A stretch of 27,987 bases of DNA from a virus. Under the pieces are notes generated by a model. That model saw nothing but the letters and a program-made list of their open reading frames with translations, was not told the DNA's origin and did not search any database. Made by a program: the position numbers and the translations under genes. The stretch covers positions 1 to 27,987 of the IMG/VR virus record IMGVR_UViG_3300049846_000412, one strand, 5' to 3'. Below, one piece after another: positions 9,778 through 15,659 of this stretch (positions are counted from its first letter, which is position 1; each line of letters starts with the position of its first letter).

Positions 9778-11166
9778 ATGAAACAGACAAAACTATTTGA
9801 AGAAAAGATTGAACTAATCGCGTTGCCATCTGTGATAGGCTCCGGCTACGAAACACAAGTGGCTAAACTGGCCCTTGAAGATAAGGTTGCTTATCGTGCA
9901 GCCCGTAAGAATATGCAGATTCATTCGGCAATCATCCTAAAGATAAATGATGAATTTTCGGGGTTCTTCACTTTCCAGGTTAACCACGAGGTAAAAGAGT
10001 TTTGTTTACTTCAATCTGCCATGCTTTTAGACCGTAAGGACAAGGCTATTTATAGCATGATGGTTGAGGAGATTATCAAACAAAATACCTACGGGTATCC
10101 AATGATAATGACCGTATCACAGAAACATGATCTTGAATGTCCTTCAGTTTTTGCGGCCATTGGATTTAAGGAATATCTGAATCTAAGTGGATATTCATAC
10201 ATGGTCTATGGCACATTGGAACAAGTAAGAATGAAGCGCCTTGCCCATGCCACGATGACAAACGTCTGGAACTCAACTAAGGGCGACTGGCTTAAGATGA
10301 AAAAAGAGTGGAACGAAAGGATAGAAGAAGCTGGTAAAAAACACGGGATAGAAAACCCTAAGTATGCTTCTCGCGAGGGTGCATGGCAGGGTGAAAATGG
10401 GATGGCTAACGTAGTGTTGGCAAAGCAAAGCGTAGAGGGTGATGAGATAAAAGACGACCGGAGCAAGTCACTTAATCACAATGTATCCGTACTTGACCCT
10501 GTGGCCTGTGAGGTTATACTACGTTTCTTCATGCCCACCGATGGCGTAAGGGTTTACAATCCTTTTGGCGGTGGTGTTCAAATGGGCTTTGTCACTGGAT
10601 GGTATACTTTTGAATACCTTTCAAGTGAGATCAGACAAAACCAATGTGACGCAAACAATGCCATTTGTAAGGATTTCTACAATACTAAGTGGCTTAAATC
10701 AGACACATCTAAGTTCACCCCAAAGCAAAACTACGACCTTATTTTTACCTGTCCACCATATTACCAGGTTGAGGATTATCTGGACTATGACGGCAACCCG
10801 CCAGAGGGTGAACTAAATTCATTGCCAACTTACGAAGAGTTTAGGGACACGCTTTTTAAGGGCTACAAAAACGCTATTGATGTACTGAATGACAACTGCT
10901 TTTTTGTGGTCATGACTGGCGACAGCAGGGATAAAAACGGGGCTTACTATGGATGTGAAGCTGAGCACGAATTGTTTTTTAAAGAGCAGGGGCTACACAT
11001 TTATAACAAGATTGTCTATTTGGAATCTGAATTTACACGCCTTGCCCATGCTAAGAGGACATTGGATTACCGCAAATTCCCCAAAAGGGAGCAAAAGATA
11101 CTTGTCTTTTTCAAGGGTGACATGAAAACTATTAAGGATAGATTCCCTAAGATTGGCCGGTTGTGA
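9778..11166 (+). CDS. Fused GNAT-like domain and DNA methylase-like domain
   Basis: A 462-residue protein. Residues about 15-145 look like a GNAT acetyltransferase fold: central strands AIILKINDEFSGFFTF, a helix, and the late AAIGFKEYLNLSGYSYMVYG. Residues about 235-450 look like an amino-DNA methyltransferase with a motif-I-like YNPFGGG at 260-266 (Asn where Asp is usual) and catalytic motif IV TCPPYYQVEDY at 324-334, then GDSRDKNG and a KILVFFKG strand. The methylase part matches a phage DNA methylase family I know. GNAT folds on DNA recall Mom of phage Mu, so an unusual adenine modification is conceivable. It overlaps the next gene by 4 bp, and the pair is more A+T-rich than the neighbours. 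Confidence 0.65.
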   Translation: MKQTKLFEEKIELIALPSVIGSGYETQVAKLALEDKVAYRAARKNMQIHSAIILKINDEFSGFFTFQVNHEVKEFCLLQSAMLLDRKDKAIYSMMVEEIIKQNTYGYPMIMTVSQKHDLECPSVFAAIGFKEYLNLSGYSYMVYGTLEQVRMKRLAHATMTNVWNSTKGDWLKMKKEWNERIEEAGKKHGIENPKYASREGAWQGENGMANVVLAKQSVEGDEIKDDRSKSLNHNVSVLDPVACEVILRFFMPTDGVRVYNPFGGGVQMGFVTGWYTFEYLSSEIRQNQCDANNAICKDFYNTKWLKSDTSKFTPKQNYDLIFTCPPYYQVEDYLDYDGNPPEGELNSLPTYEEFRDTLFKGYKNAIDVLNDNCFFVVMTGDSRDKNGAYYGCEAEHELFFKEQGLHIYNKIVYLESEFTRLAHAKRTLDYRKFPKREQKILVFFKGDMKTIKDRFPKIGRL

Positions 11167-11960
11167 AAACCTACTTACCATACATAAGCCTACAAAAAAA
11201 TGGTAGGGGTATTTGGGACTTGGATGTATCTAAGGGTTGCCGATCTGGGATGGCTGAACCTGGTGGATGTTATGGTGAATGCTACGCCGCTAAGTCAGCC
11301 GCAAGGCGTGGTATAGATTTCTCAAATACAGTTTTGAGGCACTTCAAAAACCGCGCACACCAAGAGCAGATTATAAGGGAGATTAACAAAGCAGACATGA
11401 AGTTTATAAGGATTGGATGTAGCGGTGACCCGTCAGAAAATTGGGAGCATACATTTTTAATTCTTAGAAAAATTCAAAGCGTAAACAAGGAGATTGTGAT
11501 TATTACAAAACATTGGACAGAGATACCCGAAAGACTTTTGCATGAATTGTGCGGGTTCAATGTGTGTATTAACACTTCAGTTTCAGCCCTTAGCGTTAGC
11601 ACGCTGACCCATTGTGTCGATCAATTCCACAGGCTAAAGCCATTTTGTAAATCGGTGCTAAGGATTGTTTCTTGTGACTTTAACCAGGGAAACGAAACCG
11701 GCAGAAGATTGTCAAGAATACAGGATGAGCTATTTAAAAACTCGCCAATAGTCGATACTGTTTTCAGGGCTTCAAAGAAAAGCCATTGGGTAACGGATGG
11801 GATAATAAACATCAAAAAGTCAAAGTTTATGAGTTCAGTTCAGTACATAAGCAAGAGAAACCGGAAGACATACTTGGGTAAGTGTGGCCCATGTAAAGAG
11901 CAATGTGGGATATTTAACGATGTTTTACGGGTTAGTCAGCCACAAATTTCACTTCTATGA
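11163..11960 (+). CDS. Cys-rich radical-SAM-like protein
   Basis: A 265-residue protein. Near the N-terminus three cysteines (C26, C36, C40) lie in GCRSGMAEPGGCYGECYAAK. This C-x9-C-x3-C pattern with CYA recalls the phage Gp37/Gp68 (DUF5131-like) radical-SAM relatives, whose motif also ends in CYAE, though the spacing is not the classical CxxxCxxC. Strands FIRIGCSGDPSENW at 81-94 and IVIITKHW at 111-118 fit a TIM-barrel layout with a SAM-binding Gly motif. A second cluster CGPCKEQC at 241-248 could bind another iron-sulfur centre or zinc. Its coupling by ATGA to the GNAT-methylase suggests joint action, possibly DNA modification; the reaction is unknown. Confidence 0.5.
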   Translation: MKTYLPYISLQKNGRGIWDLDVSKGCRSGMAEPGGCYGECYAAKSAARRGIDFSNTVLRHFKNRAHQEQIIREINKADMKFIRIGCSGDPSENWEHTFLILRKIQSVNKEIVIITKHWTEIPERLLHELCGFNVCINTSVSALSVSTLTHCVDQFHRLKPFCKSVLRIVSCDFNQGNETGRRLSRIQDELFKNSPIVDTVFRASKKSHWVTDGIINIKKSKFMSSVQYISKRNRKTYLGKCGPCKEQCGIFNDVLRVSQPQISLL

Positions 11961-14788: not shown

Positions 14789-14935
14789 AGAAAGTGAATA
14801 GAAACGTTGCTGAAATGTATATGAAAGTTTCCGAAACGTGGATGATAATTTCCCAAAGTTGCCGATTCAGCAAAAATTAGCGGTTTTTCTTGCAAGTACA
14901 GTCCTGTTTTGCAATCATTGCATGGGGAGGATATG

Positions 14936-14980
14936 TCTACGGATCAGAAGAGGTGGGGGTTTGAATCCCTCCAGGCCCAC
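14936..14980 (+). other. tRNA-Arg(ACG) 3' half: candidate attP core
   Basis: From the anticodon loop to the 3' end the sequence reads like a bacterial tRNA-Arg: CTACGGATCAGAAG contains the ACG anticodon and the 3' anticodon stem, followed by a variable region, a T-arm (GGGGG TTTGAAT CCCTC) and an acceptor end CAGGCCCA. The 5' half is absent: the bases before TCTACGGATCAG do not pair with the 3' anticodon stem, and no D-arm is seen. Identity starting in the anticodon loop is the usual form of an attP core for tyrosine integrases, which restore the host tRNA on integration. It lies next to the truncated integrase. Confidence 0.65.
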
Positions 14981-14996
14981 TGATTATCAAGCACTT

Positions 14997-15026
14997 AGAC
15001 ACACTCTCCCGGGTGTGTCTTTTTTT
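14997..15026 (+). terminator. Intrinsic terminator, possibly host-derived
   Basis: AGACACAC (14997-15004) and GTGTGTCT (15013-15020) form a perfect 8-bp stem with an 8-base loop, followed by a run of T to 15026. An outer AAGCAC (14989-14994) / GTGCTT (15027-15032) pair encloses it. It follows the tRNA relic by 16 bases, as a tRNA operon terminator would in the host, and would stop transcription from the replication genes. Confidence 0.75.
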
Positions 15027-15050
15027 GTGCTTAGATTTTTCATACAAAAC

Positions 15051-15659
15051 TTGAGAGGAACCCACACATACACGAACGAGGATTGCATGGTCGGGATGGC
15101 TCGCTACCCTGATAAGCACTTTGACCTTGCCATCGTAGACCCGCCTTATGGGATTGGCGGTGGTGCTAATACGAAATTTACTGTTAAATGGGATGACTCA
15201 ATTCCATCAAAGGAATATTTCAGAGAGTTAATTAGAGTATCTAATCATCAAATTATTTGGGGCGGTGCAAGTAATATTCATTTTAACTCAAGACACACAA
15301 TCGTTTGGGATAAAGAAAATGGGGATAGTTTTATGTCAGATGGGGAGATAGCCTTCACTTCATTTAATAAGCAGACAACAAAATTTTTTAGATTATTCTG
15401 GATGAGTAATATGATGAAACCGGAGGAAAAACCAATCATCCACCCCACCCAAAAGCCCATAGCCCTTTACAAATGGCTCCTTAAAAACTATGCCAAAGAG
15501 GGCGATAAAATACTTGACACCCATGTAGGTTCAGGTTCTTCGATAATCGCGGCCTTAGACTACGGCTTTGACATTACTGGTTTTGAATTGGATAAGGACT
15601 ATTTCGAGGCTAGTACAAAGAGGATAAAGAATCATTTGGCTCAACTGGTTTTAGTTTGA
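15051..15659 (+). CDS. Small phage DNA methyltransferase (DPPY type)
   Basis: A 202-residue protein. The open frame runs back to 14838 through the tRNA relic and terminator, so that part is not gene. TTG 15051 is chosen because the family's opening strand (here TYTNEDCMVGMARYPDKHFD) begins before ATG 15087. Catalytic motif IV is DPPYGIG at 30-36. It is followed by the target region, HPTQKPIALYKWLLKNY, and then motif I (ILDTHVGSGSS, 154-164, with His in place of the usual Phe/Tyr-Gly context) and GFELDKDYF. The IV-to-I order is that of small beta-class N6-adenine or N4-cytosine methylases. It probably methylates phage DNA. It overlaps the next gene by 4 bp (TTGA). Confidence 0.85.
   Translation: MRGTHTYTNEDCMVGMARYPDKHFDLAIVDPPYGIGGGANTKFTVKWDDSIPSKEYFRELIRVSNHQIIWGGASNIHFNSRHTIVWDKENGDSFMSDGEIAFTSFNKQTTKFFRLFWMSNMMKPEEKPIIHPTQKPIALYKWLLKNYAKEGDKILDTHVGSGSSIIAALDYGFDITGFELDKDYFEASTKRIKNHLAQLVLV

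Follow-up and report, generated by a model that had tools for sequence, protein, structure and literature searches.

Hypermodification of phage DNA is a driving force both in the evasion of host defence by phages and in enzyme discovery. Mom of phage Mu is a GNAT-fold enzyme that modifies adenine, and Iyer et al. reportedly predicted in 2013 that some DNA modifications use altered SAM. In radical-SAM enzymes, the cluster cysteines are typically, not universally, spaced as CX3CX2C, and a GGE-like motif follows the second strand of the barrel. Mom GNATs have been described in jumbo phages along with further enzymes of DNA modification (PMC7824862), and a carboxymethylcytosine hypermodification pathway, CmoX/CmoA/CmoY, has been published (PMC12783734). 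The locus analysed here resembles the latter in that a phage methylase would carry out the handle-installing step of a multi-enzyme pathway, but CmoX/CmoA/CmoY uses a C5-cytosine methylase with carboxy-SAM, whereas here an N6/N4-type methylase fold is combined with a GNAT-fold domain and a radical-SAM-fold protein. This combination was not found described in the literature, of which coverage was partial, and its novelty is not certain.

We analysed the IMG/VR virus record IMGVR_UViG_3300049846_000412 from positions 1 to 27,987 (the window; 27,987 nt), in which two overlapping genes, designated P1 and P2, form a module at positions 9,778 to 11,960 (Table 1). Both open reading frames were confirmed at the positions and lengths originally predicted, as were the motifs YNPFGGG and TCPPYYQ (residues 260–266 and 324–330 of P1). 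The four bases shared by the genes, given as ATGA in the original prediction, are GTGA, and P2 starts with GTG. An overlap of 4 bases or 1 base was seen in most loci in which P1 is followed by P2. A contrast in G+C content, taken from two 60-base lines as a sign of joint acquisition, proved to be unrepresentative. Over the whole genes, P1 has 42.0% and P2 40.7% G+C; the window has 44.6%, and three other genes have 41.0%. On these values, G+C content was rejected as a sign of transfer.

Table 1. Positions of the P1–P2 module and its predicted features in the window.
Feature	Position (nt)	Strand	Basis
P1: GNAT-fold domain and putative SAM-dependent DNA methylase, 462 aa	9778..11166	+	Open reading frame; AF2 model; phrog_498 'DNA methyltransferase', E 4.2e-36
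GNAT-fold domain, P1 residues 10–145	9805..10212	+	Strand/helix order of AF2 model; structural matches NatC and ElaA
Methylase domain with preceding helices, P1 residues 155–448	10240..11121	+	Structural match to Trm11; PF01555 in relatives
Methylase motif I, YNPFGGG, P1 residues 260–266	10555..10575	+	Invariant in family alignments
Methylase motif IV, CPPYY, P1 residues 325–329	10750..10764	+	Invariant in family alignments
GTGA overlap, P1 stop/P2 start	11163..11166	+	Sequence; P2 start codon GTG
P2: radical-SAM-fold protein, 265 aa	11163..11960	+	AF2 model; structural match to spore photoproduct lyase 4fhf
Putative [4Fe-4S]-binding loop, C26-X9-C36-X3-C40	11238..11282	+	Cysteines 100% conserved in 146 relatives; between strand 23–25 and helix 41–48 of model
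G88-D89-P90 after strand 81–84, place of radical-SAM GGE motif	11424..11432	+	G 100%, D 97%, P 100% conserved
C241-X2-C244-X3-C248, putative auxiliary cluster or zinc site	11883..11906	+	99% conserved

The AF2 model of P1 had a pLDDT of 80 and a pTM of 0.82, with weak stretches at residues 195–237 and 417–437. Residues 11–144 were modelled in the order b-a-a-b-b-b-a-b-a-b-b, which is that of GNAT, and the comparison of residues 10–145 by VIA-align placed this domain structurally nearest to the protein N-acetyltransferases NatC/Naa50 and ElaA (NatC 7rb3, Z 15.5, 2.1 Å over 128 aa; ElaA 5z6n, Z 15.1). This result supports the GNAT fold that had been predicted for the first half of P1. The P1 family is very strongly conserved, with 148 positions at ≥97% in 159 non-identical sequences, but none of these 159 relatives contains motif A, (R/Q)-x-x-G-x-G/A, by which GNAT enzymes usually bind acyl-CoA. 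For this reason the domain is labelled GNAT-fold, a putative rather than a proven acetyltransferase. It resembles Mu Mom as a GNAT-fold domain of phage origin with a link to DNA modification, but the kinship on which the original prediction had drawn was not borne out. The profile comparison by hhalign gave no detectable similarity (probability 0.3%, with Mom as a single sequence, which is a weak test of distant kinship), and the domain here differs from Mom in being fused to a methylase, partnered by a radical-SAM-fold protein and devoid of the usual acyl-CoA motif.

Residues 155–448 of P1 matched SAM methylases by VIA-align and were structurally nearest to Trm11/Trm14, the best match being the tRNA methylase Trm11 (5e71, Z 16.8, 2.5 Å over 177 aa). 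The window P1 matched PF01555 (N6_N4_Mtase, Pfam) with an E-value of 6.7e-5 and 23.4 bits, under the cut-off of 26.7, and this family was matched by 32 of the 37 P1 relatives (best E 4.3e-6). Together with the match to PHROG 498, these results agree with the predicted methylase second half and assign it to the N6/N4 DNA methylase family PF01555/phrog_498, with a putative methyl transfer to an exocyclic amine of DNA. In cultured phages, the same methylase clade (hhalign probability 99.9%) carries an N-terminal ParB-like domain instead of GNAT, as in Croceibacter phage P2559S gp66, Pseudomonas phage ZRG1 and Mycobacterium phage AlanGrant gp1. These ParB-methylase genes are also overlapped by a downstream partner gene, which is AdoMet_dc in P2559S and ZRG1 (E 2e-19 and 2e-23) and a PLP enzyme in AlanGrant (E 3e-10), whereas the window pairs GNAT with radical SAM. 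Because of these partners, the methylase clade appears often to travel with a candidate for altering SAM or the product. The AdoMet decarboxylase and PLP partners suggest aminopropyl-type or other SAM-derived DNA adducts, and we read the slot downstream of the methylase as one that houses enzymes modifying SAM or its adduct. The positions recorded for this arrangement are L138 4803–5120 (P2559S), L312 2950–3336 (ZRG1) and L311 1406–2272 (AlanGrant).

P2 was modelled with a pLDDT of 91.7 and a pTM of 0.88. Sequence searches of Pfam, NCBIfam, PHROGs and the PDB gave nothing usable for P2 and no PF04055 match; a PDB sequence match to a pentatricopeptide repeat protein was rejected as a short chance stretch. 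With Foldseek, no PDB match reached an E-value under 0.001, so the fold assignment is based on the Z-scores of VIA-align and on the uniformity of its matches. The best 50 listed were all radical-SAM enzymes (Z 8.0–12.1), headed by spore photoproduct lyase 4fhf (Z 12.1, 4.0 Å over 219 aa, residues 1–248), and those listed include spore photoproduct lyase, RlmN, MiaB and TYW1, which act on DNA or RNA. The viral matches in BFVD were mostly radical-SAM proteins. The model and these matches indicate a partial (b/a)6 barrel, in accordance with the radical-SAM barrel originally predicted for the second protein. The uncharacterised phage family 'Gene product 88' (A0A6J5S9G7 and A0A514K2X2) was found among the weak BFVD matches of P2, and it may be radical-SAM-like too.

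The six cysteines that had been pointed out in P2, C26/C36/C40 and C241/C244/C248, were located correctly, and they are not a matter of chance, because they are at least 99% conserved across 146 non-identical relatives. The first three are situated between the first strand and the first helix, which is the place of the radical-SAM cluster. Their spacing is C-X9/10/11-C-X3-C (X9 in 4, X10 in 86 and X11 in 56 of the 146 relatives), and the canonical CX3CX2C was found in none of these relatives. To our knowledge, such a spacing has been described for no radical-SAM enzyme. On account of this spacing and the absence of a PF04055 match, we call P2 a radical-SAM-fold or radical-SAM-like protein, not a canonical member, and its cluster and SAM cleavage are putative. 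G88-D89-P90 is replaced by GEP in one relative, and 144 of the 146 retain the C-terminal CX2CX3C. P2 shares the barrel with spore photoproduct lyase (SplB), an enzyme acting on DNA, but the identity is about 10%, and SplB has CX3CX2C where P2 has C-X9/10/11-C-X3-C together with the C-terminal CX2CX3C. P2 defines a radical-SAM-fold family that is recognised by neither Pfam nor NCBIfam. Residue 144 (nt 11592–11594), which follows barrel strand 134–140, is Ser in the window, Asn in L001 and Asp in 99% of the relatives; this Ser may tune or weaken the window copy. In L185, L194 and L215, P2 has an apparent long extension at its N-terminus, which we attribute to read-through of the open frame upstream.

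P1 was found directly before P2 in 49 of the 50 related viral loci first found. Among all of the collected loci, the distinct arrangements, with distinctness judged by protein signature and not by phylogeny, were P1 then P2 (92), a fused open frame P2-P1 (46, from 71 loci), P2 ahead of P1 in separate frames (15), P1 with an alternative partner, designated P2' (10), P2 without P1 (8) and P1 alone (3, each near a contig end). P1 and P2 adjoin in more than 100 distinct environmental loci. The fused proteins are about 730–835 aa long with the domain order radical SAM–GNAT–methylase, and MAG contigs of Desulfobacterales, Smithella and Desulfobacula contain such proteins as well. This co-occurrence and gene fusion support the proposal that the two genes are inherited as a pair. 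Across 177 loci, the surroundings of the module contain no third conserved gene, and therefore the module looks self-contained.

P1 is paired with a radical-SAM gene or its remnant wherever the flanks are readable. All ten distinct P1 loci without P2 and with a readable downstream flank carry in the same slot a gene, or a remnant, of P2', which overlaps or directly abuts the end of P1. P2' is absent from the window and is known from other loci. Seven P2' proteins matched PF04055 (Radical_SAM, Pfam) with E-values of 8e-8 to 1e-11, all above the cut-off (33–46 bits against 29.5), and the canonical CX3CX2C is conserved; by both signatures P2' is assigned to the radical-SAM superfamily. P2' looks unrelated to P2; the similarity between the two by hhalign was weak but collinear (probability 19%, pairwise P 0.0012), and P2' showed a weak SPL match in Pfam (E 0.0064). 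We interpret the exchange as non-orthologous replacement, with one radical-SAM partner substituting for the other, and the radical-SAM step therefore appears to be needed. Loci that seemed to contain P1 only turned out to hold P2' or its remnant (L133) or to be cut by the contig end (L245, L248 and L293). The remnant in L133 (7569–7835) directly follows an intact P1 and is an internally deleted P2' of 88 aa. In L244, an additional gene at 157–1023, near a P1–P2' pair, is also radical-SAM-like, with a sub-threshold PF04055 match (E 1.3e-4).

The genes neighbouring P2 and P2' include those of DNA modification. P2 without P1 was found beside TAGT (TET-associated glycosyltransferase; matches at E 7e-52, 8e-42 and 4e-15) in L048, L207 and L215, beside ParB_N proteins in L207, L208, L209 and L215, beside a PAPS-reductase-like gene (PAPS_reduct) in L208, and beside another PF04055 protein in L209 and, below the cut-off, in L215. 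These TAGT/ParB neighbours are few, from about five distinct contigs without P1. TAGT is also near P1–P2 in L014 and beside P1–P2' in L306, and P2' is beside a C5-cytosine methylase in the faecal phage scaffold L309. Of the genes of the known 5hmdU/5hmC hypermodification pathways, no TET, hmdU kinase, pyrophosphorylase or TAGT was detected among the scanned subset of the ORFs in the window, itself a phage fragment, and most module loci have no TAGT nearby. Because the methylase clade is fused to ParB and DNA-modification genes lie beside P2 and P2', we infer DNA as the target, and the proposed installation of an unusual base by the module is well supported by the neighbouring genes. A common cassette of a small ORF (about 143–153 aa) and TAGT was observed near the pairs in L014 (6476–7781) and L306 (1809–3916).

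We consider it likely that P1 and P2 constitute a self-contained DNA-base hypermodification module, and they probably add a chemical decoration to phage DNA. The order of steps and the purpose that we infer are as follows. The methylase domain of P1 would bind SAM and phage DNA and alkylate the target base. P2 would hold a [4Fe-4S] cluster via C26/C36/C40 and cleave a second SAM, and the radical of P2 (or P2') would functionalise the alkylated base or a group placed on the base; less likely, P2 prepares the donor instead. A second metal site would be provided by the C-terminal CX2CX3C of P2. The GNAT-fold domain would acylate, or otherwise load, the new group to give an acyl-type cap, and the modified product would hide the phage DNA from host restriction. 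All domains for a multi-step base modification would be contained within one or two proteins, and the module is small enough for direct expression and assay from synthetic genes. Against hypermodification weigh the lack of GNAT motif A in every P1 relative, the non-canonical cysteine spacing of P2, the tRNA methylase as the best structural match of the methylase, the PF01555 score of the window P1 under the cut-off, the small number of TAGT/ParB neighbours and the weak link between P2 and P2'. More tentatively, and with rather more doubt than confidence, we suggest that a one-polypeptide machine, combining a domain of a new C-X9/10/11-C-X3-C radical-SAM sub-family, a GNAT without use of the normal acyl-CoA site and a methylase, builds a base unseen in nature, in uncultivated viruses only.

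The strongest alternative, which we regard as unlikely but worth weighing, keeps DNA as the target and has P2 remodel SAM or another small donor, with transfer by the methylase and acylation by GNAT. The partners of the ParB-methylases are consistent with it, namely AdoMet_dc, for an aminopropyl donor, in P2559S and ZRG1 and the PLP enzyme in AlanGrant, and a published phage cytosine methylase homologue transfers a carboxymethyl group from carboxy-SAM (PMC12783734). However, the structures nearest to P2 include enzymes acting on DNA or RNA, and P2 is found beside TAGT without P1, where the need for a methyl donor is not obvious. Because this alternative also has a DNA target, it overlaps with hypermodification of the base, and the likelihoods given to the readings do not sum to one. 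It is distinctly less probable that the target is tRNA, rRNA or a host protein and that the module serves in takeover or counter-defence: the methylase is structurally nearest to Trm11/Trm14 and the GNAT-fold domain to NatC/Naa50 and ElaA, but the sequence family is that of phage DNA methylases with ParB fusions, and the genes neighbouring P2 belong to DNA modification. A role of P2 in DNA repair, as an enzyme like spore photoproduct lyase that merely travels with an ordinary methylase, is very improbable in spite of its best structural match (Z 12.1) and the weak SPL match of P2', since P2 is fused with GNAT-methylase in single polypeptides, gives way to a different radical-SAM family at the same place and has only about 10% identity to the lyase.

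The proposed hypermodification module is widespread in environmental phages, and its parts stay together, frequently within a single protein, in more than 100 uncultivated phages. Searches of 50,697 phage records matched neither P2 nor the GNAT domain at the sensitivity applied, and within this limit the module is carried by no isolate. In a sample of 395 genomes from relevant phyla, P2 was present in the centre genome alone, and near-full-length P1 in the centre genome and one other. A pattern scan of genome contigs for P2, limited by its patterns, returned zero, but P2 is present in MAG contigs, either as a fusion with P1 or next to it. In the window, a second methylase-like ORF is located outside the module at 14838–15656, and it matched PF01555 (E 1.9e-15 over residues 177–260) and phrog_67.
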